From Blastomonas sp. (GTDB taxonomy: Bacteria > Pseudomonadota > Alphaproteobacteria > Sphingomonadales > Sphingomonadaceae), in NCBI RefSeq assembly GCF_030373265.1, contig NZ_JAUCZC010000018.1, forward strand, positions 1 to 64,000: a stretch of 64,000 nt of DNA. The letters are read 5' to 3'. Positions within the stretch are counted from its first letter, which is position 1. Each line of letters opens with the position of its first letter. Below, piece by piece: positions 28,349 to 47,318 of this stretch. The notes beneath the pieces are model-generated. The model was not told where the DNA came from and ran no database searches. It worked only from the letters and a program-made list of their open reading frames with translations. Position numbers and translations under genes: made by a program.

Positions 28349-28391
28349 CGGGAGGTGAAGGGATTGATCAGCCGCTCAGCGCGGCCCGGTA

Positions 28392-30640: not shown

Positions 30641-30733
30641 GCCTGCGCCAGCGACCACCGGCTTGTGCAACGCTGGCGGCGCCTGCTGGTACAGGCGCGC
30701 TTGCCAGGGCAACCGCAACGCATTCCCATCCCG

Positions 30734-31144: not shown

Positions 31145-32130
31145 GCCGCTGCCCTCCTTATCGCAACAGACGAGCTGTCCAGCGGACAGACAGGCGCATC
31201 AGCCGTGGCTGAGGTGAGCGGCAGGTCACGCTGAAAGGCGAGCAGATAATCCGCCGCTTTGGATGCGGCGCTGGCTGCGCGCAGGATGGCGCGATGGTCC
31301 TCGCGAAGGATCGCAAGCCATGATCCGATGTAATCGGCGTGCCGCACCGTGGGGGCAATGCCAAGCGCGGCGCAGACGAAAGCTCCCGCCATTTCTGCGA
31401 CGAGCTCTTCGCGCCCGTAAGTCACTGAACCGAAAGCACCGCTCTGGTCGCGGTTCAGCCGCGAGCTGTGGCCGGCCCAATGAGCCAGTTCATGAAAGGC
31501 TGTGCGATACCAGTTAATGGGTTCGTGAAAGGCCTCCGGCCGTGGCACTGCAACAAAGTCATGGGTCGGACTGTAATAGGCCTCAGGACCGCTGATCCGG
31601 AAATCTGCACCGGTCGCATCGATCAGCGCCTGCGCAGTTGGCAGGATGAACCCATCGGGAACGGGCTCTGGACTCGCCTGGATGGCGTCGGGCAGGCCCT
31701 CGCACTGATCGACGGAAAACACGGTGAAGAACTTCAGAAAGGAAAAGCCCTTATCTGACGATGCCTCGCGATCATCGGATCGCTCTCGCCGATCGTCCGG
31801 AGCAATGCGGCGGGTATAGACGATCGGAGTGCCGCGCTCGCCGCGCCGCACCGTCCCGCCAAGGGCTGTTGCTTGCCGAAAGGTCAGGAATCCATGGCCG
31901 GTGAAGCCGCGTGAGGTAACTGCGTGCCATAATGTAAGAATGTTGACGCCGCTGTAGCGCCGCTGGCTTGCGGCATTGAAAGGCAGGCCGATCCCGGCAT
32001 GGCTGTTATCCCATGGCTGGACCCAGGGCACCCGGCCCGCCTCAAGCTCAGCCAGGATCTGGTCGGTCACCTTGCGGTAGACATCCGGGCGCGGTGTCGC
32101 ACCGGAGGTGGATCGATAGGTTTTACGCAT
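31141..32130 (-). CDS. ardC: ArdC family antirestriction protein (ssDNA-binding, zincin-like)
   Basis: This 329-residue protein has an N-terminal ssDNA-binding ArdC domain (DVYRKVTDQILAELEAGRVPWVQPWDNS and FNAASQRRYSGVNILTLW, then GFLTFRQATALGGTVRRGERGTPIVY). A C-terminal zinc-metallopeptidase-like domain carries the HExxH motif in TAFHELAHWAGHSSRLNRD and a downstream Glu in YGREELVAEMAGAF. ATG 32130 has GGAG seven bases upstream; the track start at 32250 is in the leader. ArdC proteins protect entering single-stranded plasmid DNA from host restriction, consistent with a conjugative origin of the island. It is coupled to the DUF2958 gene. Confidence 0.93.
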   Translation of the reverse strand: MRKTYRSTSGATPRPDVYRKVTDQILAELEAGRVPWVQPWDNSHAGIGLPFNAASQRRYSGVNILTLWHAVTSRGFTGHGFLTFRQATALGGTVRRGERGTPIVYTRRIAPDDRRERSDDREASSDKGFSFLKFFTVFSVDQCEGLPDAIQASPEPVPDGFILPTAQALIDATGADFRISGPEAYYSPTHDFVAVPRPEAFHEPINWYRTAFHELAHWAGHSSRLNRDQSGAFGSVTYGREELVAEMAGAFVCAALGIAPTVRHADYIGSWLAILREDHRAILRAASAASKAADYLLAFQRDLPLTSATADAPVCPLDSSSVAIRRAAA

Positions 32131-32215
32131 GGCAGGTCTCCGCGACGGATGGCCAGCGAACCTCTCGCCTGCCTTCACTCCGTCACGGGACCCCGGCCCT
32201 TCTCTTCCTCCCTGC
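32131..32215 (-). promoter_or_regulatory. Conserved 5' leader of ardC
   Basis: The leader contains GTGACGGAGTGAAGGCAGG, GAGAGG and CCGTCGCGGAGA before the ATG. It is clearly related to the leader of the ParB-like gene and more distantly to those of the DUF2493 and strawberry-notch genes. It resembles in position the described radC RNA motif, which precedes antirestriction and DNA-repair genes; that link is a hypothesis. Confidence 0.45.
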
Positions 32216-32638
32216 CGAAAGGCAGCTGTCCTGCCTGGCACCAGCGGCACCTGGCAGGATCAGCGAGCGGCTCGCGGCAATTCGCAGCGCAAACCAGCAG
32301 CCTGCAAGGTCAGCGCCTTGCGGCGACCGAAGTGGGTCAGACACGTCGATCCCGTTCGTTGCCGCTATCCGGACTGGCGCAGCAGAATAGAACCGGATCC
32401 GGAGCCGATTCTTCGGCACGAGGACTTTATCATGCAGAATCAGGGTGCTAGGTTACACACGTGGTCGCCATCGTTCGAAATCGAGCCGCAGCCAGAGCCC
32501 GCATACCGATGGCCTGCAAAGGACATAAGTGCATCCAGCCGTTCGGCGATTCCGGAAAGGAACCGGAAATCGGCGATCTGAAGGAGTGGCCAGCAGGGTC
32601 GACGGGTCGGAAACGCGCCTGCTGCCGGGCTTTAGAAC
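32216..32638. other. Intergenic stretch between ardC and luxR
   Basis: About 420 bp between divergent genes, marking the boundary between the plasmid-like block (minus) and the quorum-sensing/lasso cargo (plus). It holds the first copy of the cargo-flanking direct repeat (32381-32403) and presumably the luxR promoter. No ORF with family features was seen. Confidence 0.5.
32381..32403. repeat. Direct repeat copy 1 flanking the quorum-sensing/lasso cargo
   Basis: The 23 bases begin AGCAGAATAG and contain AGAACCGGATCCGGA. They recur at 45590-45613 in the same orientation, differing only by one extra T. The core CCGGATCCGG is palindromic. The two copies bracket luxR through the lasso precursor gene. 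Confidence 0.65.
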
Positions 32639-33391
32639 GTGAACCAATGGCATCTGACACAAGACCTGTCGCTCGAGATATCCAGCGCGACGGATGAGTT
32701 GCATCTTTTTGGTGCGCTTGAAAAAGCGGCGGCGCGAATGAATTTCGATCATTTCGCGCTAGCCTATGACCGCAGGGGGCTTTCGGAACCCGGCAATTTG
32801 CTTGTGCACAATTATCCGGAAAGCTGGGCGACGGTCTACAAGGGGTTTGATCTTAGCAAGGCGGACCCTGTTCGCCGGGCCGGGGAGCGCGCGCTGACGG
32901 GCTTCAGCTGGCAGCAGATCGAGCATTATGTTCCGCTGACGGCCGCAGACCGGCAAATGCTATCCGTTGGCCGTGAAAACGGTCTGGCCGACGGCTATAC
33001 TGTGCCAAGACATCTGGTCGGCGAGGCCAGCGGCAGCTGTACGTTCGTCATCAGCCAGGATCGCGATCTGCCGCAGCATTTCCTCCATACTGCCGAGATC
33101 GTCGGCGCAACGGCGCTTGCCACCGCCCGCCGCATCAGCGGTGCCAAGCAGGTAGAGCCCAGGCCGGTGCTGAGCGAACGACAGCGCGAATGCGTATTGT
33201 GGTCGGCGCGGGGCAAGACAGCCGGCGAAATCGCCGCGATCCTGGGGATCAGCGAGGAAACGGTAGTCCAGCACCTCAAGAATGCGCGCGAGCGGTACGA
33301 TGTCCATGGCCGGCAGATGCTGATCCTGTGCGCGCTGTTCGACGGGCTCATCGGGTTCTCGGATATCTTCGACTGGTGGAATCCAAACTGA
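32639..33391 (+). CDS. LuxR family acyl-homoserine-lactone-responsive regulator
   Basis: This 250-residue protein has an N-terminal autoinducer-binding domain (about 20-165) with the conserved ligand-pocket residues in order: Trp and Tyr in SWATVYKGFDLSKADPV, the Asp-Pro pair, and Trp in GFSWQQIEHY. The C-terminal LuxR HTH (about 180-240) reads LSERQRECVLWSARGKTAGEIAAILGISEETVVQHLKNARERYDVHGRQ. The start is GTG at 32639; no in-frame ATG gives a full domain. It lies 549 bp upstream of and codirectional with luxI, so it is the cognate receptor of the AHL made next door. Neighbouring lasso genes are candidate targets, by inference only. Confidence 0.93.
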   Translation: MNQWHLTQDLSLEISSATDELHLFGALEKAAARMNFDHFALAYDRRGLSEPGNLLVHNYPESWATVYKGFDLSKADPVRRAGERALTGFSWQQIEHYVPLTAADRQMLSVGRENGLADGYTVPRHLVGEASGSCTFVISQDRDLPQHFLHTAEIVGATALATARRISGAKQVEPRPVLSERQRECVLWSARGKTAGEIAAILGISEETVVQHLKNARERYDVHGRQMLILCALFDGLIGFSDIFDWWNPN

Positions 33392-33940
33392 AGGATTTGA
33401 GACATGAGACGCTCTGCAAGGTTTGTTCATCCTATCAGGCGCTCAATTCTGTGCAAAAGCTTGAGGCGAAGGGTCGCGGGGCGGGGAACCCGGCGAAGGC
33501 AATCGCTGCTTACGGAGCGACCCAGAAGATTGAAACTGGGTCGTCACCGGACACGGTCGCAGCCTTGACCTGCTTACCCTCCTTCGGACACCTCCAGGAA
33601 CATCCGGACAAGCTCGATGTCGATGTAGTAGGTCGGCGCTAACATGACACTTTCAACGTGTTAATGAACCTCCGATCATTTTAACACGATAGGGCGCCCA
33701 TTTCAGCGCAATGCCGGTCGCGCGTACGCGAAAATTTGGTTTGATGGGCGTCGCACGACGGAAGCGCCCAAGATAGCACCCACCAGAGCAAGGCCTTTCG
33801 GGCGCGCGTGATCACTCATCCCCAGAGCATCTATAACGGTGACGATATGGGGGCGGCTTAACCCATCCCCTGATCTTGGTATACCGCCCAAATACCGATC
33901 GTGGTCTGGTTTGCAGAACAACAGTTCTGGGAAAACAACC
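33392..33940. other. 549-bp region between luxR and luxI with several dyad symmetries
   Basis: No convincing gene is present. It holds an 8-bp dyad CGACCCAG/CTGGGTCG (33518-33543), an 8-bp dyad CGTGTTAA/TTAACACG with a 16-base spacer (33657-33688), and a lux-box-sized dyad just before luxI. Very short minus-strand ORFs of 23 and 37 codons exist here without recognisable features. The length suggests a separate luxI promoter. Confidence 0.5.
33914..33929. promoter_or_regulatory. Candidate lux-box-like dyad before luxI
   Basis: CAGAACAACAGTTCTG has perfect 6-bp arms and a 4-base centre. It ends 11 bases before the luxI ATG. The position overlaps the expected ribosome site, so it may act as an RNA element or repressor site rather than a classical activating lux box. 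Confidence 0.35.
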
Positions 33941-34564
33941 ATGATCAACGCCATAGCCCGTCTGGAAATTGCGGAAAGCAACTTGGCCATGCGCGCCATG
34001 TTCGCGGCCCGCAAGCAGGTCTTTGTAGACCTTCTGAAATGGGACTTGCCGGTCCTCGAGGGTCAGTTCGAGATCGACCAGTTCGATACCCCCGACGCCC
34101 GCTACCTGATCCTGCTTGGCGCAGACAGGCAGCATCGCGCCTCGGCCCGCCTCCTTCCCACCGCAGGGCCGCATATCCTGGGCGATCTGTATCCCCATTT
34201 GTGCGAGGGCGACGTCCCGCGAGGTCCTCGCATTCTCGAAATCTCGCGCTTCTGCCTCGACCGGAACCAGGATGCTGCGTCGCGTCTGTCGGCCCGCAAT
34301 CAGCTCGTGACCGCGCTGGTTGATCACGCGATCCATGAGCGCATCGACTGTTATACCGGTGTTGCCGAGCTCGGCTGGCTCGCACAGATCCTCCGCTTCG
34401 GCTGGCAGTGCGAGCCGCTCGGGGAGCCGCACGGCAATACAGGGTCGAAAATCGGGGCCCTGCGCATCCAGATCGATGACCAGACACGGGCCAGGCTCGA
34501 GCGCACTGGCATCTATACCCCGTTATCGCTGCAGCTTGTCGAAAGCCGGGAGTCGGTCGCATGA
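33941..34564 (+). CDS. LuxI family acyl-homoserine-lactone synthase
   Basis: This 207-residue protein has the family's conserved residues: Arg and Phe-rich start ARKQVFVDLLKWDLP, Asp residues in GQFEIDQFDTPDARYLILL, and the Arg/Glu site in SARLLPT and GPRILEISRFCLD. It makes an acyl-HSL from SAM and an acyl donor in the cytoplasm. ATG 33941 is chosen over the track start at 33839, since MINAIARLEIAESN precedes the conserved core by the usual distance. It overlaps phyH by 4 bases (ATGA). Acyl-chain length cannot be predicted from this sequence. Confidence 0.94.
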   Translation: MINAIARLEIAESNLAMRAMFAARKQVFVDLLKWDLPVLEGQFEIDQFDTPDARYLILLGADRQHRASARLLPTAGPHILGDLYPHLCEGDVPRGPRILEISRFCLDRNQDAASRLSARNQLVTALVDHAIHERIDCYTGVAELGWLAQILRFGWQCEPLGEPHGNTGSKIGALRIQIDDQTRARLERTGIYTPLSLQLVESRESVA

Positions 34565-35424
34565 ACGCGATGTCGTCCGAAAAGCTAGCCAGTGCGCTGC
34601 TCGATAGAGGCTTTTGCATCGTGCCTGATGTCGTGCCGCGCGCCACCATCGAGGCACTTGCCAGCGATCTCGACCCGGTGTTTGCGGCGACGCCCTTTGG
34701 CCAGGGCAGCTTTTATGGCTACCGAACCAAACGCTTTGGCGGCCTGCTCAAGCTATCGATGCATTCGCATGCACTGGTGCTGGAAAACACCATATTGGCG
34801 GCAGTAAATTCCATCCTTGGCGATGCCTGCGATCGCATCCAGGTCAATGTCGCCCAAGCCATCGAGATCCACCCCGGAGAACGGCGTCAGTTCCCTCACC
34901 GAGACCATGATATGTGGAACGGCGCAAAGGGAGCGCACGAATATCTCGTCAACGTAATCTGGCCACTTACCCCTTTCACTGCAGCCAATGGTGCCACGCA
35001 CATCTATCCCGATAGCCACGGTGCAGACGGCATGGCCCGGCAGGATCTGAGCGAACCGGCTATCGCAGAGTGCGACCCCGGAGCCGCAATCTGTTTCCTG
35101 GGCTCGACCGCGCACGGAGCAGGCGCAAATGTCACCAGCGAGGTCAGGCGCGGGATCGTCATCGGGTACAGCCTGGGCTGGCTGAAGCCCTATGAGAATC
35201 TCTGGCTTGCCTATCCCCCATCGGTAGCCCGGACTTTTCCTCCAGACCTTGCGGCACTGGCAGGCTATGTCCAGCACCGTCCCAACCTGGGCAATTACGA
35301 GGGCCAATGCCCATCCGTTCTTCTCGACGATGTCGTGCCGGAGCATCTCGGTGCCGTCGACGCCCTGCGTCCCGATCAGGAAACGATGCTGGCTGCGTTC
35401 GCCGAGCAGGAGCGGATAAGCTAG
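34561..35424 (+). CDS. Phytanoyl-CoA dioxygenase (PhyH) family protein coupled to luxI
   Basis: This 287-residue protein has a non-haem Fe(II)/2-oxoglutarate oxygenase fold with the iron triad HxD (FPHRDHDMW, about residue 115) and a distal His (FLGSTAHGAGANVTSEVRRGIVIGY), with the 2-oxoglutarate-binding Arg just after. A phyH gene directly downstream of luxI is a recurring arrangement in sphingomonads, suggesting it modifies the acyl-HSL, for example by hydroxylating the chain. That function has been proposed from context and is not proven by sequence. The start overlaps the luxI stop, and the stop overlaps the next GTG start, giving a tight luxI-phyH-gntR operon. Confidence 0.9.
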   Translation: MNAMSSEKLASALLDRGFCIVPDVVPRATIEALASDLDPVFAATPFGQGSFYGYRTKRFGGLLKLSMHSHALVLENTILAAVNSILGDACDRIQVNVAQAIEIHPGERRQFPHRDHDMWNGAKGAHEYLVNVIWPLTPFTAANGATHIYPDSHGADGMARQDLSEPAIAECDPGAAICFLGSTAHGAGANVTSEVRRGIVIGYSLGWLKPYENLWLAYPPSVARTFPPDLAALAGYVQHRPNLGNYEGQCPSVLLDDVVPEHLGAVDALRPDQETMLAAFAEQERIS

Positions 35425-36017
35425 TGAGCCCGGCGCATGTCATCGAACCGACCTATGAAGCGATCAAGCGCCGATTGATGCATGGCCACTGGCCGCAGGG
35501 AACGCGGCTGGAGGCTGCAAGGATTGCAGACCTGCTGCATGTCAGCATCACACCTGTGCGCGACAGCCTGTACCGGCTGACGGGCGAACGGATGGTCGAC
35601 TTTACGCATGGCGTGGGATTTCATGCTCCGCGGATGACCGAAGGCGATTTGCGCAGCATGCTGGAGCTGCATCTTGTGCTGATGCTGGCAGCGCTGGCGA
35701 CGCAAGTGCGCGGTTCAATCACGCCAGTGGGCCGGTTGGACGAAGGATCGGACGGATTTGGTACGCTGTTCCTTTCGATCGCCCGGCGCTCGGGCAATGG
35801 GGAGCTTGCAAGCTGCATTGCTGGCCTCGGTGCCCGGCTCCATATCGCCCGTCTCGCCGACGCCGAGATACTCGGCGACACGACTGACGAACTCAGCGAT
35901 CTTGAAGCGGCCTATGCCAACGACCCAGCCCACCCCGAAGTCCGAGCGCTGTTGCTGCGTTACCATGAACGGCGCGCGCAAGACGCTGCTGCCTATATCC
36001 GGCATATCACTGCCTGA
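35424..36017 (+). CDS. GntR family transcriptional regulator
   Basis: This 197-residue protein has an N-terminal winged HTH of GntR type (PTYEAIKRRLMHGHWPQGTRLEAARIADLLHVSITPVRDSLYRLTGERMVDFTHGVGFHAPRMTEGDLRSMLELH). A short helical C-terminal domain resembling FCD follows, but without an obvious full metal-binding His set. The GTG start at 35424 shares a base with the phyH stop (TAGTG), so it is the third gene of the luxI operon. The track start at 35307 lies inside phyH. It may tune this operon or the adjacent lasso genes; no operator was identified. Confidence 0.85.
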   Translation: MSPAHVIEPTYEAIKRRLMHGHWPQGTRLEAARIADLLHVSITPVRDSLYRLTGERMVDFTHGVGFHAPRMTEGDLRSMLELHLVLMLAALATQVRGSITPVGRLDEGSDGFGTLFLSIARRSGNGELASCIAGLGARLHIARLADAEILGDTTDELSDLEAAYANDPAHPEVRALLLRYHERRAQDAAAYIRHITA

Positions 36018-36273: not shown

Positions 36274-36903
36274 GTGCCGTGCGGGTACTGCTGCGTGTCT
36301 TCGCCAAAATGGAAAAGCCTTTCTTCTGAACGTCACCCGTTCTCGGTGTCATCGGCATGCCACGCCCATCCGGACGACCGTCCGGTTCAAAGCGAACCAG
36401 CATCGCGCGAGACAAGTGATCTAGACGCAGCGTTTCGGGAACATGCCGCAGCGCTGCTCCAGTTTCTGCGTCGCAAGGCGAGCCCGCAGGAAGCGCCCGA
36501 TCTGGTGCAGGAGGTGTTCGCAAGGGCAGCAGGCAGCGCCCAGAGGCACAGCTTGGTCAACCCCGGCGGCTTTCTCCGTCGCATCGCCCAGAACCTGCTG
36601 ATCGACCGATCGCGCAAGGTTCATCGGCATGGGGCGCCTGAGGTGTCGTTCTGCGAAGAACGGGATTTTGCCGCGCCCCCACAGCAGGAATGGAGCATGG
36701 AAGCGGCTGATCTGATGAGTTTGTACGAAGCAGCCGTGGATTCGATGTCACCCAGAACGCGCGAGGTTTTTCTGATGCACCGGGTCGACGAACTGACCTA
36801 TCGGGAGATACACGAGCATCTGGGAATCAGCGTTGCAACGGTGGAATATCACATGATGAAGGCGCTCGCGCATATCGCGCAGGCCGTGGACTATACACGA
36901 TGA
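36274..36903 (+). CDS. FecI-like ECF sigma factor for the lasso uptake genes
   Basis: Core residues match ECF sigma factors: region 2 (AFREHAAALLQFLRRKASPQEAPDLVQEVFARAAG, then NPGGFLRRIAQNLLIDRSRK) and region 4 (MSPRTREVFLMHRVDELTYREIHEHLGISVATVEYHMMKALAHIA). No ATG lies in frame upstream of the domain; the start could be GTG at 36274, 36295 or 36346, none with a good ribosome site, so the first about 50 residues are uncertain. The stop overlaps fecR by 4 bases. In FecIRA systems the sigma factor is released when the outer-membrane receptor binds its ligand; here the receptor, isopeptidase and possibly the lasso operon are likely targets. Confidence 0.88.
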   Translation: MPCGYCCVSSPKWKSLSSERHPFSVSSACHAHPDDRPVQSEPASRETSDLDAAFREHAAALLQFLRRKASPQEAPDLVQEVFARAAGSAQRHSLVNPGGFLRRIAQNLLIDRSRKVHRHGAPEVSFCEERDFAAPPQQEWSMEAADLMSLYEAAVDSMSPRTREVFLMHRVDELTYREIHEHLGISVATVEYHMMKALAHIAQAVDYTR

Positions 36904-37910
36904 CGCACGATCACCGCGATGATGCAATCGATGACGCTGCGCGCGCCTGGCTGATCAAGATGCGGGGTCCGGACGCCCACCAGCTGCGTCACGAGTTCGA
37001 GACTTGGCATAATGCCGACTCTGCGCACAAGGCAGCCTATGAGCGGGCCGAAGCTATCATGGCGCAGTCCGCTATCCTGAAGGGCTCTATGCGACATGGC
37101 CGGGCGCGCAAGTCTCGGCCTGCCGCTCAACGACCTGTCATGCAGCGATGGCTGACCGCCGGTGCGCTGGCAGCCGCAGCGGCCATGCTATTTCTGGCGA
37201 TCAGTGCCGGAGGTGCTTCCCTTTCCGGTGCCAATGGCCAAAATCCGATAGCCGCCTGGGCTGCCGAGCCTCTGATGACAAGGCACGGCGAAATCAGGAG
37301 CTTTCGGCTTGATGACGGATCCGTTGTCACGCTCGATACCGACAGCCGCCTCGACGTGGCGTTGAGCGATAATGCAAGGGTCGTGAAGCTTGGCAGAGGC
37401 CGGGCACGCCTGCAGATCGCCACTGACGCGCGGCCATTCCGCATTCTGGCAGGGGCTGGCGAGGTCACCACCACGCAAGCCTTACTCGATATCGGTTATG
37501 ACTACGACGGCATGATCGGCGTCACTCTGTCCAATGGCGCGGCGGTAATTGCACCGACTGGTCGGAACACCTCCAAATCCGTAATCCGCCAGCTTCCTGC
37601 AGCAACGCCCCTGGCATATCGCGCCGATGATGCCGGGCTGAGGCTTCGGGCACGGTCGCCAATCTATGGCGACAGTGAATGGCCGTCTGGCTGGGCAGAA
37701 TATCGCACGGTCAGGCTCGACCAGCTGGTGGCCGCAGCCAATCGATATGCGGCGGTTCCGATCAAAATCGAGGACCCTGCCATCGCCCGCCTCGAAGCGT
37801 CCGGCCGTTTCAGGATAAGCCAGACGGATACCTTCGTCAGGCGCCTTGCACAGCTGTTCGATCTTGCCATCGAGCGCAGGGCCAACGGAATATATCTGCA
37901 ACGGCGATAA
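36900..37910 (+). CDS. FecR-like anti-sigma factor / signal transducer
   Basis: This 336-residue protein has an N-terminal cytoplasmic DUF4880-like segment (DDAARAWLIKMRGPDAHQLRHEFETWHNADSAHKAAYERAE). One transmembrane helix follows (WLTAGALAAAAAMLFLAISAGG, about 80-105). The periplasmic FecR domain reads TRHGEIRSFRLDDGSVVTLDTDSRLDVALSDNARVVKLGRGRARL, and the C-terminal region with LDQLVAAANRYAAVPIKIED and FRISQTDTFVRRLAQLFDLAIERR contacts the receptor's STN domain. The order FecI-FecR-TonB receptor with STN is the standard cell-surface signalling layout, here tied to a lasso peptide. Confidence 0.93.
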   Translation: MTHDHRDDAIDDAARAWLIKMRGPDAHQLRHEFETWHNADSAHKAAYERAEAIMAQSAILKGSMRHGRARKSRPAAQRPVMQRWLTAGALAAAAAMLFLAISAGGASLSGANGQNPIAAWAAEPLMTRHGEIRSFRLDDGSVVTLDTDSRLDVALSDNARVVKLGRGRARLQIATDARPFRILAGAGEVTTTQALLDIGYDYDGMIGVTLSNGAAVIAPTGRNTSKSVIRQLPAATPLAYRADDAGLRLRARSPIYGDSEWPSGWAEYRTVRLDQLVAAANRYAAVPIKIEDPAIARLEASGRFRISQTDTFVRRLAQLFDLAIERRANGIYLQRR

Positions 37911-37953
37911 TTTTTCCATTGCCTGACTAAGGTGCCCAAACAACCAGCGTCAT

Positions 37954-38008
37954 TCCCCCTTCAAAGGCCGTGTGTCTCCTCGACAAGCGGCCCCAAACCG
38001 AAGGGGGA
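37954..38008 (+). promoter_or_regulatory. Inverted repeat that could sequester the receptor's ribosome site
   Basis: TCCCCCTTC (37954-37962) and GAAGGGGGA (38000-38008) are perfect 9-base complements 37 bases apart. The right arm is the purine-rich ribosome-binding region just before the ATG at 38014. A leader hairpin could limit receptor translation; this is inference. Confidence 0.35.
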
Positions 38009-38013
38009 TCAGG

Positions 38014-40557
38014 ATGATGTCAGGAAAATCACAGGTGATGCGCGCGCTGATGGCCAGCGTGGCGCTGGGGCTTATGCCAGGTGCTGCACATGCCCAGCAG
38101 CAGGAAAAGATGGTCTACGACCAGCCAGCGCAGGATCTTGGCGACGCGCTGCGCAATGTGGCCACGCGAGCCGGAATCGAACTCTACGCTTCGGCGGATG
38201 ATCTTGAAGGTCTTCAGGCGCCTGCCCTGAAGGGTGATCTGACAACACGGGAAGCCATTGAGGCCCTGTTGCGTGGCACCCGCCTCGTTGCGCGGTTTGA
38301 ACGGGGGTCGGTGACGATCGGACGCGCTGAAGGCAGGCGCGCCGATGAAGCCGGCTCGCAATCCGATCCCATCATCGTGACGGGATCACGCATCAAGGGT
38401 GCGCCTTCGGCCGTTCCGGTGACGACGGTGACAAGCGAGGACATCCGCAATGCCGGTCAGAATGATCTTGGCGAAGTGGCACGCAGCCTTCCCCAGAACT
38501 TCGGTGGGGGTCAAAACCCGGGCATCGGCAACACTCAAGGCGCTGCCAACGAGAACGTCAACGTCAATGGTGCATCGACATTCAATCTTCGCGGCATTGG
38601 GCCCAATGCGACGTTGACACTGATCAATGGCAACCGTTTTGCCTTCAGCGGGGTCAATTCGGTCATCGATGTGAGCGCAATTCCCGTGGCTGCGGTCGAG
38701 CGTGTCGAGGTGATCGCCGACGGGGCCTCGGCGATTTACGGCGCAGATGCGGTGGCGGGCGTCGTCAACATCATCCTGCGGCGAAGCTATGATGGCGTAT
38801 CAACCAGCGCGCGCGTTGGCGGATCGACCGATGGCGGCAATTTCCAGCAGCAATTCAGCGTTCTGGCCGGCAAGAGCTGGTCGACCGGCGGGGTGCTGGC
38901 TGCTTATGATGTCAGCAGCAATTCTTCGATCCAGGCCGGGTCGCGCAGCTATGCAGTCTCGAATAATCCGGATGCCACCCTATTTCCCGACCTGCGTCGG
39001 CACGCCGTTCTTATCAGCGCCCACCAGGCTTTTGGTGATCGCGTCGAACTGAGCGCCGACGCCATTTTCAAGACGGGCAGACAGATCGCGGCCTCGGGCT
39101 TCTCGGCCACAGTGCCGATCACCACCTCTGGTAACCAGGTTCGCACCGATTTCGAGACATTCGGAATTGCTCCGAAAATCGTCGTTGATCTGTCGGACGA
39201 CTGGACCTTCGAGATCCTCGGCTTTTATGGCACCGACACAACCGATGGTCTTACCCGGATTTTTTCCGGAGGCATTCAGACGAGCACCGCCCCACGATAT
39301 TTCTTCAACCGGAATTTCTCGGTTGAGGCGGGGCTTCAGGGCGCGCTGTTCGAGCTGCCTGGAGGGCCCGCCCGGATTGCAGCGGGCGCTGGTTACCGTT
39401 CCAGCTTTTTCGAGGCGAGGCTTGGCGGCAGGGCGTTCGACCAGCTTCGTAAAAACTATTTTGCCTATGGGGAGCTGTATGTGCCGCTCACCAGCCCGGA
39501 ACAGGGCGTCGCGCTTGCGCACCGGGCATCGCTCACCGGCGCGCTGCGCTATGAGGACAACTCGGATTCGGGCGATATCGTCACTCCCAAGGTCGGCATG
39601 ATCTACGAGCCGGTAGCCGGGCTGACCTTTGGCATCTCATGGGGCAAATCGTTCAAGCTGCCGACGCTCTTTCAGCAATATACGGGCTATTCAGCAGTTC
39701 TGGTGCCGGTTGGCGGCTTCGGACAGGGTTTTCCGGCGAGCTCGACGCTCGCGGTTGCCCAGGGGGCCAGCGAGATGCTGGGGCCTGAGCGCTCGGAGAA
39801 CTGGACCTTCAGCGCGACGGTGAAACCGGCAGGCGGTCTGGAGCTGTCCGCTGCCTATTTTCATATCGACTATACGGACCGGGTAACACCTCCGCTGCCC
39901 TCAGGCGCTGGCGCGCTCAATAACCCGATCTTCGCAGATCTCATCACATTCAATCCGTCAGCAGCCTTGCTCGATGCACTGTTCAGCGGCGCAAATGGCG
40001 GGCTACAGAATGGGACTGGCGCTCCCTATGACCCGCAGCGGGTGATTGCGCTTCTCGATGCACGCACCCGCAATATTGCCCAACAGACCTACAGCGGCGT
40101 CGATGTGTCGGCACGATACGACCTTGAGACTGGCCCGGGTCAGCGGCTCTCGCTGAGCGGCGGCGGTACATGGATGGAAAGCAGCCAGCGTCTTCTTCCC
40201 GGCCTGCCCGTGACCGAACTGGCCGGAAACATATTCTTTCCGCCGCATATTCGCGCGCGGGCCGGGGCGACGTACAGCACAAAGCGGCTTTCGCTTTCCA
40301 CCTTCGTCAACCATAGCGGCAGCGTGACCGATAATCGCAGACCGGTTCAGACCAAGCTGTCTTCATTCACCACCCTGGATCTGACGGCGCGTCTGACGCT
40401 GGGGACAGGGACCGAGATCGCGGTCAACGCCCTCAACATTCTCAACGAGAAGCCCGATCGCATCTTCACGGCGGCCGCGTTCGACGCAGCATTTGATTCA
40501 ACCAATTACTCGGCGGTCGGACGCTTCCTCGGCCTGACGATACGTCATGACTGGTAA
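38014..40557 (+). CDS. TonB-dependent receptor with STN domain, predicted lasso peptide uptake/signalling
   Basis: This 847-residue protein has a signal peptide (LMASVALGLMPGAAHA). An STN/secretin-TonB N-terminal domain (about 30-105: VYDQPAQDLGDALRNVATRAGIELYASADDLEG) signals to FecR. The TonB box region (DPIIVTGSRI), plug (STFNLRGIGPNATLTLINGNRF and VERVEVIADGASAIYGADAVAGVVNIILR) and a 22-strand barrel ending in the aromatic-terminal VGRFLGLTIRHDW follow. ATG 38014 follows AAGGGGGATCAGG. It is located between fecR and the isopeptidase, an arrangement found in isopeptidase-type lasso clusters, where it is thought to import the lasso peptide for cleavage. The stop overlaps the isopeptidase start region. 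Confidence 0.93.
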   Translation: MMSGKSQVMRALMASVALGLMPGAAHAQQQEKMVYDQPAQDLGDALRNVATRAGIELYASADDLEGLQAPALKGDLTTREAIEALLRGTRLVARFERGSVTIGRAEGRRADEAGSQSDPIIVTGSRIKGAPSAVPVTTVTSEDIRNAGQNDLGEVARSLPQNFGGGQNPGIGNTQGAANENVNVNGASTFNLRGIGPNATLTLINGNRFAFSGVNSVIDVSAIPVAAVERVEVIADGASAIYGADAVAGVVNIILRRSYDGVSTSARVGGSTDGGNFQQQFSVLAGKSWSTGGVLAAYDVSSNSSIQAGSRSYAVSNNPDATLFPDLRRHAVLISAHQAFGDRVELSADAIFKTGRQIAASGFSATVPITTSGNQVRTDFETFGIAPKIVVDLSDDWTFEILGFYGTDTTDGLTRIFSGGIQTSTAPRYFFNRNFSVEAGLQGALFELPGGPARIAAGAGYRSSFFEARLGGRAFDQLRKNYFAYGELYVPLTSPEQGVALAHRASLTGALRYEDNSDSGDIVTPKVGMIYEPVAGLTFGISWGKSFKLPTLFQQYTGYSAVLVPVGGFGQGFPASSTLAVAQGASEMLGPERSENWTFSATVKPAGGLELSAAYFHIDYTDRVTPPLPSGAGALNNPIFADLITFNPSAALLDALFSGANGGLQNGTGAPYDPQRVIALLDARTRNIAQQTYSGVDVSARYDLETGPGQRLSLSGGGTWMESSQRLLPGLPVTELAGNIFFPPHIRARAGATYSTKRLSLSTFVNHSGSVTDNRRPVQTKLSSFTTLDLTARLTLGTGTEIAVNALNILNEKPDRIFTAAAFDAAFDSTNYSAVGRFLGLTIRHDW

Positions 40558-42775
40558 GCCGCGCATGATCCGTACAGGGACAACAGTCTGGTCACTGTTT
40601 GCTGGCATGTCGTTGATCGCCCTGCCGAGTGCAGCGGGGGGTATGGAACCCAATCGCTATTGGTCGGCGGAAGATATTGTTACGGTTCCAAAAGTCATCT
40701 CGCTTGCGCTGTCATCCGATGGAAAGGATCTGGCCTATATCGAAAAGGTGGCCGATCTCCGGGAGAACCGAACGCTTTACATCGTGTACCATCTGGATTT
40801 GGCTACCCGGGTGCGAAAAGAGATCGTGCGTGCCGCTTCCGCTGACCATCTCAAGGCGATCGCGGGCGCCAGAGAGTGGAATGTGCTGCTTGACCTTGGT
40901 CAAGGGCAGCAGCTTTATCGGATTGACGCGAGATTGAATGTCGGACTCGTCGTCGCGAATGAGGACAATGTTCAGGTCGGACAGACAGAAGGTGGTTTGT
41001 TTGCGGTTACGAATAACGCGCCGCACAGGGTCGGCGTGTTAGGATATGACTGGTCCCCGGATCGCAAATGGTTGTGGTATACTGCACTTAAGCCGACAAT
41101 CGACCGCCCTCAGCTGAAGCGGGACGACGATGTCATAGCTCAAAAGCACAGGCGCCGTGCACCGGTCAGTGCGATGGTCGAACTGCGCCTGCGGTCGCCA
41201 ACGGGTGAAGACATACTTGTTGCAACACGTCCTACGAAAGACCGTCTTGCCTTCTATTTCGCCGGCACCGTGAAATGGACCAAAGATGGCTTACGCTATT
41301 ACGTCGAAACCACATCCGGCACACAAAGCGATGAATCTGAAGCCTTTGAACTGAAGTTCGGATCAACGGCCAGCATGTCAGTTGGAAAACAGCAAGGTCT
41401 ACCTTCGGTTGATTTTGTCCGAGGGCCTCGCGGGGGCCTCCTCGCCAGCAGCGGATTGGGAACGGCGTTCGAATTGGTCGAGACCCAGGCCAGCGCTCCG
41501 CAACACAGTTACGGCAAGTATCCTTTCTATGTGGGGGATCCACGGGCCGCGGCAAGCTGGCGCTCTACCGATGGTCAGAGAACAGTTCTTGGAATGCGGA
41601 CGACCAAGCATCCGCGCTACGGATTGGCGCTTGTGACCTTACGCGGCGTGCGACCGATCTTGACCAATGGAAGTCTGACCCGGTGCGATTTTCGTGCGGA
41701 CGTGGACTGGGGCGTCTGTGTCGAAGAGTCGATGACACAATCACCTAGGCTGGTCAGGGTTAAGCCCGGCACCGGCACGGTCGACAACATCATCGAACTT
41801 TCCGCGCGACACCAAGCTGTAACACCCTTGCGCACAACGGCACATACATGGACCAATCGACATGGGCTCAATACAACAGGGTTCATCGTCTGGCCCCGCG
41901 GGTTTGAAAGGGGTCAGAAATATCCTGCCATTGTCGTTACGCACGGAAGCGATGCCGACGAGCGTTTTGCCGAACAGGACTTCCAATGGGATTATCCCGT
42001 TCAGCTTTGGGCAGAGCGTGGATACATGGTCGTTCTCGTAAATGAACCGTCCCCGAGGCAGGATCCGGCCTTGATGGCGGCCTATGCCCAGTGGCGGGCT
42101 GGGCGTGGCGAACTGACACCTGAAGAACTTCAGCGCCATGTCTGGCTGAACGTTATTGATACCCTGGAAGATGTTGTTGGCCAGATGGCAAAAGAAGGCG
42201 CGTTGGATGTCACACGCGTTGGCATCGCAGGATATAGCCGCGGTTCTCAGATTGCGAATGTTGCAGTGACGCAATCTGGTCTGTTCAAAGCCGCGTCCAG
42301 TGGCGATGGCAGTTTCCTCGAGCCTGCAGCCTATCATGAAGCGATCCGCTCCTATACCGCCATCTTCGGGGGGCCGCCTGTAGGTGAAAATCTGCCAAAC
42401 TACCGGCGCCTTTCGCCATCGCTACGCGCAGATCGTGTGTGCGCGCCGGTGCTCCACCAAATGGCGGCCCCGTTCGCAGGGGCAATAGATTTCCATTTGG
42501 CGCTGCGATCTGCGCGCGTTCCGGCCCAGATCGGCCTTTATCCCGGCGAGACTGCTGCAACGGATGAAACGCATCTGTTTCACATTCCCTCCAACCGCCT
42601 TCAGGCTATGCGCGAAAACCTTGCCTGGTTCGATTTCTGGCTACGCGGCGAGCGTGACCGCGATTTTGAATTCCCGGATGATTTTGACCGATGGGCGCGA
42701 ATGGCGGAGGATCTGCCGGAAAGGTGCCGACTCCAGCCTCTAAGCAACGCGGCGGATGCGTCGGTCATCAAATAG
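40547..42775 (+). CDS. Lasso peptide isopeptidase (Atxe2/SpI-IsoP-like S9 prolyl-oligopeptidase relative)
   Basis: This protein of about 742 residues has a signal-like N-terminus (TTVWSLFAGMSLIALPSAAGG). A beta-propeller (about 30-450) is followed by an alpha/beta-hydrolase domain with the nucleophile elbow IAGYSRGSQIANVAV (Ser near 561) and a late His (ETHLFHIPS). The family hydrolyses the isopeptide bond of lasso peptides and opens them to linear form, which distinguishes it from ordinary S9 peptidases by context: FecIR-TonB receptor on one side and lasso genes C-B-A facing it. The acidic triad residue is not obvious in the stretch PVLHQMAAPFAGAIDFH. Start ATG 40547 overlaps the receptor stop; Met7 (40565) is an alternative. 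The 3' end overlaps lasso gene C by 8 bases. Confidence 0.9.
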   Translation: MTGKPRMIRTGTTVWSLFAGMSLIALPSAAGGMEPNRYWSAEDIVTVPKVISLALSSDGKDLAYIEKVADLRENRTLYIVYHLDLATRVRKEIVRAASADHLKAIAGAREWNVLLDLGQGQQLYRIDARLNVGLVVANEDNVQVGQTEGGLFAVTNNAPHRVGVLGYDWSPDRKWLWYTALKPTIDRPQLKRDDDVIAQKHRRRAPVSAMVELRLRSPTGEDILVATRPTKDRLAFYFAGTVKWTKDGLRYYVETTSGTQSDESEAFELKFGSTASMSVGKQQGLPSVDFVRGPRGGLLASSGLGTAFELVETQASAPQHSYGKYPFYVGDPRAAASWRSTDGQRTVLGMRTTKHPRYGLALVTLRGVRPILTNGSLTRCDFRADVDWGVCVEESMTQSPRLVRVKPGTGTVDNIIELSARHQAVTPLRTTAHTWTNRHGLNTTGFIVWPRGFERGQKYPAIVVTHGSDADERFAEQDFQWDYPVQLWAERGYMVVLVNEPSPRQDPALMAAYAQWRAGRGELTPEELQRHVWLNVIDTLEDVVGQMAKEGALDVTRVGIAGYSRGSQIANVAVTQSGLFKAASSGDGSFLEPAAYHEAIRSYTAIFGGPPVGENLPNYRRLSPSLRADRVCAPVLHQMAAPFAGAIDFHLALRSARVPAQIGLYPGETAATDETHLFHIPSNRLQAMRENLAWFDFWLRGERDRDFEFPDDFDRWARMAEDLPERCRLQPLSNAADASVIK

Positions 42776-44489
42776 CATTGCTCCACCATCGTGCCCACGT
42801 CTCGGCAGCGCATAATGTGAGTATTCGTCTCGCCCTGTTTGATCCATCTGGGGTTGGTTGTCCGGCTCCATCAAAGATAGAAAGGTCCAGCATCCCGGCT
42901 TTTGCAAGCATGCCGCCACGCAGCATGTCCTCTGCTTTACGGCCTTGCGATTGGTATATCTTCCGCATGAACCCGGACGGTCCACCCTTTGAAGTTCGCT
43001 GCAGCAGTTCTTGTGGAACGATACCTTCAAAGGCTGCTCGGGCAACTGCCCTGTTTTTGCCCTCATTAACCCATAGCCATGTTGGGATTGCGAGGCACAG
43101 CTCGATAATCGGCTGAGACAGCAATGGAGCAATGTGGATCGGGTGAGTCTTGCGCGGATAAAGCTCAATGCTGCGTTGTGCGCGGATGAGCTGCTTTACA
43201 TGCCCAATTTTGCCCGGAAGCGCATTTTTCGGAACGTCGAGCCAGGGATGGAGCGACCGATCAGGCACAAGTGTTTCGCTCATTGATTTTGACAGGCCAG
43301 ATGTGTCGCTGGCGATACGCGGTGCATGGCCGGCCCGCCTGTAAATGTCCCACGCATGGCGCAGAATTGTCATACCGTCGGCACCCGTCAGGACACTGAG
43401 ATCCCGCAAGGTAGTCATGACGCCGGAGCGGGATCCTTGAGACAGGAACCGGTCCACGAACGGTGCAGCTGTGCGCAAGCTGCAGAACACATTATCACCG
43501 CCATTGCCTGAGAAATGTGCCTCGATGTGATGGTTGGCACGAAATTGCGAATGTATGGCTGCGATGGACTGCATGAAATAGGGCGCAACCGGCCATGGAT
43601 GGTGCCGAGCGACCGGCTCTTCGACATCCACTGATGACAAGGCGTAATGTCGTTCATGCAACGGACGATCCAGCACTGTTGCCAGCCTGGCAGCGTAGCT
43701 TCGTTCATCCCCGTGCGGATCATTGCTGACCAGATTGAGGCAGTGCAGCATGGTGTGGGGCTGCACTGTGCAAGCGACGATCGAAGAATCGAGCCCGCCG
43801 GAGACGCCGAGCAGGATCGACTCGAAGCACCCTCCCCAGGAACGAACACAATTGGTTGTGACGCGGCGAAGCTTTGCGGCAGCAGCATCAAAATGTATCT
43901 GTTGGCCTGGATCTGTCCAACGCCATGGTGTCCACCACACGCTCAGGGAAGTTCCTGCAGTCGACCTCGTGATGCATTCTCCAGCCAGAAGTTCCGAAAT
44001 GCCAGTAAGGCAGGTGTCGCGCCCGATTGCATCGAGGCTGATCAGAAGCCGTCCGACCTGTTCGAAGTTGACAGCTCCCGGCCCGCGAGTTGCAAGGTCC
44101 TCGACATCGCTGCCAAGGATCAGACTGCCGGATTTGGAGCGATAATAGCATGGCAGTTGCCCGGACGGATCGCGCAGCACGGACACTGTGCCGCCATCTC
44201 CAACAATAACGGCAACATAAGCCCCCCAAAAATCTGTGAGTAGCGATCGGCCTTCGCTCGCCAGAATTGCCTGTACAGTTACGTCATCAAGTTCCGTTAT
44301 GCGGCGGCTTAGCTGGACGCCTTCAAACAGGTGACCGATGATGCAGCCGTGATCACCGATCCGGATCACGGGAGTATCGCTCCAGACGCGCACTGCAGGA
44401 TCAACAAATGCGGGGCAACCCTTGGTTGGAGCAGCTCCGGCTCCAGCTTCGCTGCCCGATGACAATTCAATACGAAAATGTCCGGCCAT
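42768..44489 (-). CDS. Lasso peptide macrolactam synthetase (asparagine synthetase-like, gene C)
   Basis: This 573-residue protein has an N-terminal amidotransferase-like domain lacking the Cys2 of true asparagine synthetases (starts MAGHFRIEL). The C-terminal AsnB-like domain has the PP-loop LLGVSGGLDSSIVACTVQ (about residue 225), which adenylates the Asp/Glu side chain of the core so that the free N-terminal amine closes the ring. Further AsnB-type motifs are YAARLATVLDRPLHERHYAL and EAHFSGNGGDNVFCSL. The ATG at 44489 shares a base with the stop of gene B (TAATG), so B and C are coupled. It is convergent with the isopeptidase gene. Confidence 0.92.
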   Translation of the reverse strand: MAGHFRIELSSGSEAGAGAAPTKGCPAFVDPAVRVWSDTPVIRIGDHGCIIGHLFEGVQLSRRITELDDVTVQAILASEGRSLLTDFWGAYVAVIVGDGGTVSVLRDPSGQLPCYYRSKSGSLILGSDVEDLATRGPGAVNFEQVGRLLISLDAIGRDTCLTGISELLAGECITRSTAGTSLSVWWTPWRWTDPGQQIHFDAAAAKLRRVTTNCVRSWGGCFESILLGVSGGLDSSIVACTVQPHTMLHCLNLVSNDPHGDERSYAARLATVLDRPLHERHYALSSVDVEEPVARHHPWPVAPYFMQSIAAIHSQFRANHHIEAHFSGNGGDNVFCSLRTAAPFVDRFLSQGSRSGVMTTLRDLSVLTGADGMTILRHAWDIYRRAGHAPRIASDTSGLSKSMSETLVPDRSLHPWLDVPKNALPGKIGHVKQLIRAQRSIELYPRKTHPIHIAPLLSQPIIELCLAIPTWLWVNEGKNRAVARAAFEGIVPQELLQRTSKGGPSGFMRKIYQSQGRKAEDMLRGGMLAKAGMLDLSIFDGAGQPTPDGSNRARRILTLCAAETWARWWSNAI

Positions 44490-45133
44490 TACACGACCAG
44501 AATGGGTTTGTAGGTGGTGACGAGGTCAAGCGGGTCTGTCAGGACTGTGGAACCGAACTGGACCCAGCAATGGGCTGAGAATGGCAATGCTACCCCGATT
44601 ATGAGGTCAACATGGCAACCCTGACGGGCGAGCATGCATTTCATTGCGATCCCCCGAACCAGACACTTGTCGATACCAGAGGTAAAGCGGCCTGCCCGCT
44701 GGAAAGCTGCTGCCGCGCGAGCGGCAACCAGAAGTTCTTCCGGCCTGGCGGGCAAGCTGGTTGATGCAATTCGGCTGAAAACCTGTGCGAGAGGGCGTCG
44801 CTTGAGCATCAGTTCCGCACAGGCCTGATATAAGATGGCCTTCGCTGTGAGCCTGAGAGGCGCGGGCTGGATATCATTCTCGATGACACTGAAGAGAGGC
44901 GTTTCAACCTGGAGCTTTCGCTCTGCCGAGTCTGCCGGGCCGGCTTGTATGATGCTTCGCGACTGCAGCCAGGCAAGGTCCGAGACATCTGCGCAACCGG
45001 ACACGAAGCGCTGGAACCGAGCGTCGGCATCCTTGTGCAACAGAAAGTAGCGATCAGAATCGAGGTCGAGAAACACCGAGCATGATCCCAATGTGCAGAA
45101 GTGCAGGTGCGGAGAGAGCCGATATCCCATCAT
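44489..45133 (-). CDS. Lasso peptide leader peptidase with fused RRE (gene B, B1-B2 fusion)
   Basis: This 214-residue protein has an N-terminal about 80 residues that form a RiPP recognition element/PqqD-like domain (GYRLSPHLHFCTLGSCSVFLDLDSDRYFLL), which binds the leader peptide. The C-terminal transglutaminase-like cysteine protease (B2) shows Cys in GIDKCLVRGIAMKCML, His in FSAHCWVQFG and Asp in TDPLDLVTTYKPILVV, which cleave the leader. Proteobacterial lasso clusters usually have the fused form seen here. The track start at 45163 is TTG; ATG 45133 fits family N-termini better, though no strong ribosome site is seen. It lies 56 bp after the precursor gene on the same strand. Confidence 0.92.
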   Translation of the reverse strand: MMGYRLSPHLHFCTLGSCSVFLDLDSDRYFLLHKDADARFQRFVSGCADVSDLAWLQSRSIIQAGPADSAERKLQVETPLFSVIENDIQPAPLRLTAKAILYQACAELMLKRRPLAQVFSRIASTSLPARPEELLVAARAAAAFQRAGRFTSGIDKCLVRGIAMKCMLARQGCHVDLIIGVALPFSAHCWVQFGSTVLTDPLDLVTTYKPILVV

Positions 45134-45189
45134 GACAGGCTTGCGATCAGCAATGGCGTGCAACCATCAGGCTGCACGCCACTGGCTGT

Positions 45190-45333
45190 TCAGTCGTCGG
45201 ACTCGATACCGCCAACGAAGATACGCTGCCCCGTCTGGACATCGTCGTTGCCGAGGATCGAGGCACCGCGGGTTTCGTCCTGGACAGCGCCCAGATCGAT
45301 GACGTCGTCATGCTGAGGTTCAAACGAGTTCAT
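45190..45333 (-). CDS. Lasso peptide precursor (gene A), 47 residues, missed by the ORF track
   Basis: ATG 45333 has AAAGGA at good spacing and encodes 47 residues. The leader MNSFEPQHDDVIDLGAVQDE ends with Thr-Arg, placing the conserved Thr at position -2 before a Gly, the rule for lasso precursors. The predicted core is 25 residues. It begins GASILGNDD, so the Gly1 amine can close on Asp8 or Asp9 (8- or 9-membered ring). It ends FVGGIESDD, closely resembling the GGI...DD tails of sphingonodin- and sphingopyxin-type lasso peptides from sphingomonads. Candidate steric plugs are Ile16, Phe17 and Arg15. Genes B and C follow directly. No exporter (D) gene is present, as is usual in isopeptidase-type clusters. 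Confidence 0.9.
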   Translation of the reverse strand: MNSFEPQHDDVIDLGAVQDETRGASILGNDDVQTGQRIFVGGIESDD

Positions 45334-45409
45334 GCTCAGTTCCTTTCCGTAATATGCGACCAGGATAGTCGCAGAGAAAGGCTATGCCCGGTTGAACGTC
45401 ATCTCCATT

Positions 45410-45426
45410 TTATAATCCGATTATAA
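45410..45426. promoter_or_regulatory. AT-rich palindrome upstream of the lasso precursor gene
   Basis: TTATAATCCGATTATAA has perfect 8-bp arms around one base and lies 77 bp upstream of the precursor ATG. It contains TATAAT on both strands and could be a promoter -10 region, an operator, or both. Confidence 0.4.
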
Positions 45427-45933: not shown

Positions 45934-47097
45934 TCAGCTTTCCTTATCGCAGTAGGCGGCCCATCCCGCCATCATGACGCGCCTCTTCTCCAGCAGGTTG
46001 CCGCGCCGGTAAGCTGCCTCAGTCTTATTTGCCACCACGTGCGCCAACGCCGCTTCGGCAACATCACTGGGATGATCCGTTTCCTCGCTCACCCAATCGC
46101 GAAACGACGAGCGAAACCCGTGCGGTGTGTACGGCTGGCCCATCTCCTTCATCAGCTTGGACAGGGTCATGTCGGACAGTGGCTGCATATTTTTGAAGCC
46201 CGGAAATACATACGGCGACTCCCGAAGGCGCAGTTGCTTGCAGCGGCGCAGAATACGCATTGGCCGGGAGGCCAGAGGGACAACATGCTCACGAAATGCC
46301 TTCATCCGTTCCTTGGGGAGGGTCCAGAGGCCGTCTTCGAGTTCGACCTCATCCCAGGTCATGCCGCGCACTTCGCCCGACCGGGCAGCCGTGAAGATGG
46401 CAAACTCCAGCGCCAGACGGCTGAACGATTCTCGTGAACGCAACTTCTGGACGAATTTGGGCACCTTCTCATAGGGCATGGCAGGAAAGTGGCCATCACG
46501 GCGAGGCTGGCGCGGCAAGCCTTTGGTGATAGCCCGCATCGGCGCCTCGGTATCGCGATAACCGGATGCATAGGCCCAATCGAGCACCACGCCGACCCGC
46601 TGCCGGACCCTGCGTGCCGTTTCTGGCTTGGTCAGCCAGATCTCGGCCAGAAGGTCACGGATCATGGGCCCCGTGATCCGGTCAACCTTCATTTTCCCGA
46701 TGAAAGGAAAGGCATAGGCTTCCAGAGTTCGCATCCATTGGCCGTGGTGCTTGCCATTGCGCCAGGTCTTCGAGTGAACCTCATAGACCCGCTGCGCAGC
46801 GTCCTTGAAGGTGGGCACGGCATCGACCTTTCGCCGCTCGAACTGCGGGTCGAGGCCCATCTCGATCTGGCTTCGCACCTCGCGCGCCCGTTCGCGAGCA
46901 TCAACCAGGCTCACCTTGCTGCAGCTACCCAGGCCGAAATCTCTCCGGTCGCCCTTGTGCTGCACCCGGCAAACCCAGCTGCTGCTCCCTCCCGGCCTCT
47001 CGTAGCGATAAAGGCCATCACCAAACCCTACTCGGCGGGTGGTCTGGCTCTTGGTTTCAGAGCCTGTCTTCGAAGTGGTTTTCATGGAGGTGATCAT
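45934..47097 (-). CDS. Tyrosine-type site-specific integrase (P4-like)
   Basis: This protein of about 387 residues has an N-terminal arm-binding DUF4102-like domain (GFGDGLYRYERPGGSSSWVCRVQHKGDRRDFGLGSCSKVSLVDARERARE), a core-binding SAM-like domain, and a catalytic domain with Arg in FTAARSGEVRGMTW, HxxR in TPHGFRSSFRDWVSE, His in AALAHVVANKTEAAY and the nucleophile Tyr in EAAYRRGNLLEKRR. The track start at 47148 is GTG; ATG 47097 (MITSMKTT) or 47085 is more likely. It lies next to the 3' end of tRNA-Ser(CGA), the usual target of this class, and should catalyse integration and excision of the island. No excisionase was recognised. Confidence 0.93.
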   Translation of the reverse strand: MITSMKTTSKTGSETKSQTTRRVGFGDGLYRYERPGGSSSWVCRVQHKGDRRDFGLGSCSKVSLVDARERAREVRSQIEMGLDPQFERRKVDAVPTFKDAAQRVYEVHSKTWRNGKHHGQWMRTLEAYAFPFIGKMKVDRITGPMIRDLLAEIWLTKPETARRVRQRVGVVLDWAYASGYRDTEAPMRAITKGLPRQPRRDGHFPAMPYEKVPKFVQKLRSRESFSRLALEFAIFTAARSGEVRGMTWDEVELEDGLWTLPKERMKAFREHVVPLASRPMRILRRCKQLRLRESPYVFPGFKNMQPLSDMTLSKLMKEMGQPYTPHGFRSSFRDWVSEETDHPSDVAEAALAHVVANKTEAAYRRGNLLEKRRVMMAGWAAYCDKES

Positions 47098-47227
47098 AAA
47101 ATTTGTTCCCACATTTGCAAAAATGTCGGTCTGGACGACGTGGGACACATTTGGATCCGAATCACCAGCGTAACCCGCAGGAAAGCTGGACGTCTGGAGC
47201 CAGTCAGGGATTTTGTGGGATTAGTAC

Positions 47228-47318
<91 letters not shown>

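Follow-up and report, generated by a model that had tools for sequence, protein, structure and literature searches.

In lasso peptide clusters of the isopeptidase type, a GntR-like gene, a TonB transporter and a sigma/anti-sigma pair have been described as constant partners, and the function of the class has been called enigmatic, the proposals being cargo release or control of the amount of peptide (PMC9266682). A locus of this type lies in a stretch of 64,000 nucleotides from Blastomonas sp. (contig NZ_JAUCZC010000018.1, positions 1 to 64,000), which was analyzed as a whole and is called the window below. Judged by its genes, the locus is a new member of the isopeptidase class of lasso clusters; it has a signalling arm of the Fec type and is closest to the sphingopyxin I cluster. 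It is preceded by genes for quorum sensing with N-acyl homoserine lactones (AHL), by which production of the peptide is, with moderate confidence, most likely gated.

The isopeptidase of the locus (E) can be aligned across almost its full length to that of the sphingopyxin I cluster, SpI-IsoP (5jrk/5jrl), with 670 bits to 5jrk and shared conserved serine, histidine and acidic residues. The core peptide is new here, and for the present locus the genes luxR-luxI-phyH-gntR are recorded as part of the unit. As in the clusters of astexin (AtxE2), benenodin and subterisin, the precursor is recognized by family models, a TonB receptor and a sigma/anti-sigma pair stand beside the isopeptidase and no ABC (ATP-binding cassette) exporter is found among the genes of the locus. 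E is distant from AtxE2, however (76 bits to 5txc), and stays below the NCBIfam AtxE2 equivalog cut-off (165 of 400); it is therefore not filed as an AtxE2 orthologue. With FecIRA signalling the locus shares an extracytoplasmic function (ECF) sigma factor, a FecR protein and a TonB receptor bearing an STN domain. The ligand of FecIRA is ferric citrate, whereas the arm here is linked to a lasso peptide as putative ligand.

Two further comparisons concern the quorum-sensing genes. The novR-novI-phyH loci of Sphingomonadaceae match the luxR-luxI-phyH order found here, and one of them also has a GntR gene; lasso genes go unmentioned for these loci, whereas in the present locus the module is linked to a lasso cluster (PMC5012321, PMC4288048). 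The sphingocin locus of Sphingomonas BPH, as far as the accessible part of its report goes, is a benenodin-family lasso operon with a divergent isopeptidase and TonB receptor, as here, and in that part quorum-sensing genes are not described, unlike here (PMC11006600). A transposon in the sphingocin B gene abolished growth on phenanthrene, according to the same part of the report (PMC11006600).

Linkage of the quorum-sensing module to lasso clusters

The initial annotation had taken positions 36274-45333 for the complete locus. This interval proved too short: four conserved genes (32639-36017) fall outside it, as do the cis elements at 45334-45426. The four genes lie on the plus strand, directly upstream of and on the same strand as the gene for FecI. 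The first, luxR (32639-33391), encodes an AHL-responsive regulator with the domains Autoind_bind and GerE (Pfam 88.5 and 47.6 bits). It is followed by the AHL synthase gene luxI (33941-34564; PF00765, 73 bits), which begins with an ATG in a reading frame open from GTG 33839 and whose product is TraI-like in NCBIfam, below cut-off. Next come phyH (34561-35424; PF05721, 72.6 bits), which is phytanoyl-CoA-dioxygenase-like and conserved beside luxI, and gntR (35421-36017; PF00392, 40.7 bits), which encodes a GntR-family regulator and whose listed open reading frame opens at 35307. The synthase gene and that of the AHL-binding LuxR are adjacent and intact, and PF00765, PF03472 and PF00196 all score over their cut-offs. 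Conserved blocks are seen upstream of luxI.

The same four genes precede FecI in the same order in clusters of the sphingopyxin I (SpI) type from Blastomonas, Sphingopyxis, Hephaestia, Novosphingobium and Sphingomonas. All eight SpI-type relatives with full flanks have them, four of these eight being near-identical Sphingopyxis-type loci. Orthologues of luxR that are 82-87% identical occupy the same place in two genomes (G001 and G007); in a sister genome (G002) luxR is 94% identical yet about 10 kb from luxI. This luxR-luxI gap (G002:C1, 305233-315922) is unlike the other Blastomonas loci. That luxR-luxI-phyH-gntR belong to the lasso unit is supported by sequence.

The linkage was surveyed across 401 genomes of the family with profiles for the lasso B2 protein (PF13471) and LuxI (PF00765). 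Among the matches listed, 30 of 150 LuxI genes (in 28 genomes) have a lasso B2 gene no more than 15 kb away, about 45 times the 0.66 expected from random placement. The distances fall mainly into the ranges 2.5-3.0 kb and 9.6-10.5 kb. The ten near loci sampled first are all isopeptidase lasso clusters with luxR-luxI-phyH-gntR. Three layouts occur, with the module running into the precursor gene A, placed before FecI (as here) or divergent from FecI, and the linkage spans 18 genus codes. Lasso clusters were also found at 9 of 25 LuxI loci that had not been scored as near, in a sample that was not random and included one locus picked for its known isopeptidase. This brings the number of lasso-linked genes to at least 39 of the 150 listed for LuxI, and extrapolation from this non-random sample suggests a share of up to about half. 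On a LuxI tree, the lasso-linked proteins cluster (8 changes against 14.4 in shuffles, with 0 of 500 shuffles as low), again with sampling that was not random.

Both the enrichment, with its three layouts and many genera, and the clustering on the tree argue against the idea that luxR-luxI-phyH-gntR are chance neighbours or generic cargo of an island and that the lasso system runs without quorum sensing. This idea can draw on the usual description of the class without quorum sensing, on the occurrence of luxR-luxI-phyH elsewhere in sphingomonads without lasso genes, on many AtxE2-type clusters without LuxI and on the integrase beside the locus; it is considered rather improbable.

Five luxR-luxI-phyH-gntR modules were seen with no lasso B or C gene detected within about 10 kb (L111, L118, L120, L123 and L124). 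In L124 luxR is about 8 kb away, and FecI and a TonB receptor are close by in two of the five. They could belong to relatives too distant to detect, or to systems that have moved.

Lasso genes, predicted peptide and upstream elements

Seven genes make up the lasso locus proper, all with intact frames and with support from families or solved structures on the strands and coordinates that the initial annotation gave them. On the plus strand, the genes for the FecI-like ECF sigma factor (36274-36903; Sigma70_r2 and r4_2, with sigma70-ECF above cut-off) and the FecR-like anti-sigma factor (36900-37910; PF04773 and PF16220, with DUF4880) overlap by 4 bp. The TonB-dependent receptor of 847 residues (38014-40557), which starts at ATG 38014 and not at GTG 37972, carries STN, plug and barrel domains (PF07660, PF07715, PF00593); its gene overlaps that of E (40547-42775) by 11 bp. 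E and the cyclase gene C overlap convergently by 8 bp. The order of the seven genes is not due to chance, because it recurs in relatives from five genera (Blastomonas, Sphingopyxis, Novosphingobium, Hephaestia and Sphingomonas). The FecI/FecR/TonB arm, which had been presented as the cluster's own, is present, but it is standard for the class and not special to this locus (PMC9266682).

The proposed isopeptidase class was confirmed by the match of E to 5jrk, by precursor models above cut-off and by catalytic residues that are invariant, S564, E674 and H676 being so among 38 aligned peptidases. The N-terminus of E looks like a signal peptide, as judged by eye. C (42768-44489, minus strand) combines an Asn_synthase domain (PF00733, 82.8 bits) with the SGGxDS signature, in the form SGGLDSS, as expected of the synthetase that had been predicted, and NCBIfam cyclase models stay below their own cut-offs. 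B (44489-45133, minus strand) had been read as a fusion of a RiPP (ribosomally synthesized and post-translationally modified peptide) recognition element (RRE) and a leader peptidase. NF033537 (73 bits), PF13471 and conservation agree with this: C157 and H188 are invariant and D200 is mostly conserved among 41 aligned B proteins. A structure model of B (mean pLDDT 92.4, built with 30 sequences) supports the fusion as well, with an RRE as the N-terminal domain, its best match in the PDB being the lasso B1 protein TbiB1 (5v1v, probability 0.99), closely followed by a second lasso B1 protein (6jx3, probability 0.96), with E-values of 0.04-0.1 for both. ATG 45133 is the most likely start of B, because the frame from TTG 45163 is broken in one relative.

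The precursor gene A (45190-45333, minus strand) scores above cut-off for the NCBIfam benenodin model (NF033522, 36.1 bits, cut-off 33) and the Pfam subterisin model (PF24178, 37.1 bits, cut-off 27). Its product would consist of the leader MNSFEPQHDDVIDLGAVQDETR and the core GASILGNDDVQTGQRIFVGGIESDD, encoded at 45193-45267, with the junction ...ETR/GASILG..., which places Thr at -2 and Gly at core position 1. The first nine core residues align gap-free across related precursors, with GASILGNDD in the window and GSAIAGLDD, GASILGDED, GALPSGQQD, GSDNFGRED and GTAPLGIYD in others. A lasso of 25 residues with a ring between G1 and D9 is the most likely product predicted, because D9 alone among the acidic residues is shared by the aligned SpI-type cores. 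The masses computed from the core are 2544.209 Da for the lasso and 2562.220 Da for the linear peptide.

Three elements surround A. A 17-bp palindrome, TTATAATCsGATTATAA, occupies 45410-45426 (positions -93 to -77 of A) and is a candidate GntR operator. The palindrome or a near copy is found in all SpI-type loci, starting 88-94 nucleotides before the start codon of A, at a distance that is fixed in the clade, and perfect copies occur in the window, G002, L008, L013 and L023. It is the sole perfect match in the genome, and chance would yield 0.04 copies with up to three mismatches in the window. Because the palindrome is present where the adjacent GntR resembles that of the window (at least about 42% identity) and absent where it is more distant, GntR would be the best candidate to bind it. 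The second element is a hairpin in the 5' untranslated region (UTR) of A (45334-45387, minus strand), in which the Shine-Dalgarno sequence GGAAAGG can pair with CCUUUCU and which has an inner stem UGCGAC/GUCGCA. The same fold is obtained for the window and for eight relatives, with z between -1.7 and -4.9 (L013 being the weakest case), and its partners co-vary, for example from CCUUUC/GAAAGG to CUUUUC/GAAAAG and from GCGAC/GUCGC to GCGAU/AUCGC. Finally, a strong hairpin between A and B (45135-45188, minus strand) is kept in 17 of 17 loci checked, with varying sequence. The sole match to Rfam was a tRNA.

Other lasso arrangements were seen along the way. The same genome contains a second lasso-type cluster, on a single strand (L058, G000:C6:78001-96000, positions 637-10360), with a TonB receptor, an S9 peptidase (43 bits to the isopeptidase model), a GntR-like gene, precursor, B and C in this order, then an integrase on the opposite strand. 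Its precursor, found by eye just before B, reads MKQDNRNRLIRLGSIRRDTK/AIVTAGQQEEFLPILSYQ; the core would start with Ala, and the predicted lasso mass is 1988.03. In Brevundimonas abyssalis (L021) two tandem isopeptidase-C-B sets stand within 14 kb, and in L027 (12749-14346) the match to the cyclase C is broken into two parts, which might reflect a frameshift or a split gene.

Exchange of the ligand cassette

The locus appears to lie on an island with a tyrosine integrase (45934-47148, minus strand; PF00589, PF22022, PF13356) next to a tRNA-Ser(CGA) gene (47229-47318, minus strand), the likely attachment site. A second copy of the tRNA 3' end was not found in the window, nor was an attachment repeat for the left island end. 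At 19270-32250 the window holds mobile-element-like genes on the minus strand, with Polbeta/HEPN, YspA-like SLOG, Toprim primase, strawberry-notch helicase, DUF7007, ParB-like and ArdC antirestriction products; ArdC also adjoins the lasso cluster in L039.

The history of the locus was followed in five genomes of one genus. In the sister species G002 it sits at the same tRNA-Ser and adjoins an integrase that is 98% identical. Synonymous divergence (dS) between the window and G002 is 0.49 for luxI, 0.46 for phyH, 0.27 for gntR, 0.27 for FecI, 0.39 for FecR, 0.32 for the receptor (computed from ATG 38014) and 0.33 for the integrase, and it reaches 2.38 for E, 1.96 for C and 1.76 for B. Identity drops from about 0.93 to 0.45 at ~40566, just beyond the stop codon of the receptor, and recovers at ~45250, at the GASILG codons of the core. 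Because identity falls at the receptor stop and recovers inside the core codons, it follows that the ligand cassette has been exchanged under a receptor that was kept. Relative to G002, the cassette comprises E, C, B and core codons 7-25 (40566-45250, ends approximate). The leader, the upstream region and core residues 1-6 belong to the local background; the other 19 core residues differ at 11 positions, and the receptors are 95% identical.

A second tract, shared between G002 and G001, begins at ~38400, where a linker joins STN to plug, and extends across E, C and B with a dS of 0.24-0.31, and the FecR and STN parts of these two genomes diverge by 1.2-1.5. Trees point the same way: a grouping of the window with G002 is rejected by E (p 3e-66) and C (p 7e-9), and that of G002 with G001 by FecR (p 1.6e-6); in the receptor tree, all three fall together. 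The breakpoints respect working units, namely FecI-FecR-STN as sensor, plug and barrel as importer and E-C-B-core as ligand. In the genomes searched, the E of the window has no relative above 66% identity and the donor of the cassette was not found.

Enzymes of RiPP pathways are capable of rapid divergence, and diversifying pressure may act on the core, so that fast evolution of E, C and B in place, with no cassette exchange, had to be weighed. It is ruled out by the synonymous sites, which diverge about six times more inside the block, and retains only a very slight probability: the block edges, at ~40566 and ~45250, are just tens of bases wide, dN/dS in E is about 0.12, and the low dS between G002 and G001 holds for the same three genes.

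The joint movement of E and core fits the strict self-specificity reported for isopeptidases of the class (PMC9266682). That the receptor did not move with the cassette suggests recognition of the conserved ring start or of something besides loop and tail.

The producer itself encodes the receptor, in one operon with E, and immunity does not need FecI/FecR signalling from a receptor; both points sit badly with the proposal that the peptide is a density-controlled, bacteriocin-like antagonist of close relatives, the receptor being the entry port and the isopeptidase providing self-immunity. Toxins are often under AHL control, an integrase adjoins the locus, and E swapped with the core under a kept receptor is what would be expected if E must match the weapon. 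The peptides of isopeptidase clusters are generally without antimicrobial activity, though (PMC9266682), and this proposal is considered unlikely. The earlier suggestion of a signal or scavenger rather than an antibiotic agrees with this inactivity and with the published proposals, but the re-import that it included is not proven by sequence.

Proposed circuit and implications

Quorum-gated production could proceed as follows. At high density, LuxR with AHL would switch on luxI-phyH-gntR and the downstream FecI operon, and GntR would control the A-B-C operon through the palindrome 77-93 nucleotides before A, with the 5' UTR hairpin restraining translation of A. The RRE-peptidase B would cleave the precursor and C would form the 25-residue lasso from it, which would leave the cell, alone or with cargo. 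The receptor, whose STN domain is what signalling through FecR to FecI requires, may then take the exported peptide back, uptake being reported through STN, FecR and FecI and raising the levels of receptor and isopeptidase. E, probably periplasmic, would open the lasso and thereby end the signal or free the cargo. The locus itself would evolve by exchange of modules for sensor, importer and ligand.

Several observations weigh against this interpretation. LuxI was present in the fetched flank of only 4 of 15 AtxE2-type loci, so that the module is not universal, and one isopeptidase locus (G005) has no LuxI match, its contig ending inside the receptor gene. Co-occurrence is the whole basis of the operator assignment, and a receptor that stays unchanged when its ligand changes is unexpected if it reads loop and tail. 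In agreement with the initial annotation, no exporter gene, of the ABC type or any other, was found between 32.6 and 45.4 kb.

A resistance-nodulation-division (RND) efflux operon (OEP, AcrB, HlyD) with a TetR-type regulator alongside is present on the same contig, at 7944-14545 of the window. As candidates for the exporter, its efflux genes (7.9-13.8 kb) were dismissed, because even luxR, the closest member of the locus, is about 19 kb away and no evidence connects them with the locus.

A link between lasso peptides and quorum sensing was not found in the literature searched, most subscription papers falling outside, which makes this weak evidence of absence. Within that literature, the quorum-sensing partnership, the A-leader elements and the receptor-sparing cassette exchange appear undescribed. 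The AHL link, the candidate GntR operator and the translational hairpin indicate conditions under which expression and a phenotype can be sought. In Croceicoccus, quorum sensing promotes the degradation of polycyclic aromatic hydrocarbons (PAH) (PMC7432010). The linkage found here could form a bridge between that report and the effect of the lasso B gene on growth with phenanthrene, as given in the accessible part of its source (PMC11006600).

A broader claim is put forward tentatively and with less than even confidence: a large share of sphingomonad AHL synthases may exist to run lasso systems, in which cell density gates a peptide that leaves the cell, is re-imported and is then opened, and which diversify by swapping a ligand cassette (isopeptidase, B, C and core) under an unchanged importer and sensor. 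The natural cassette swap, with receptors 95% identical and peptides differing at 11 of the last 19 residues, offers a ready-made experiment on receptor recognition. If the claim is true, this recognition would depend on the ring start that the peptides share (GASILG) or on cargo, and not on the loop and tail that are read by the isopeptidase.

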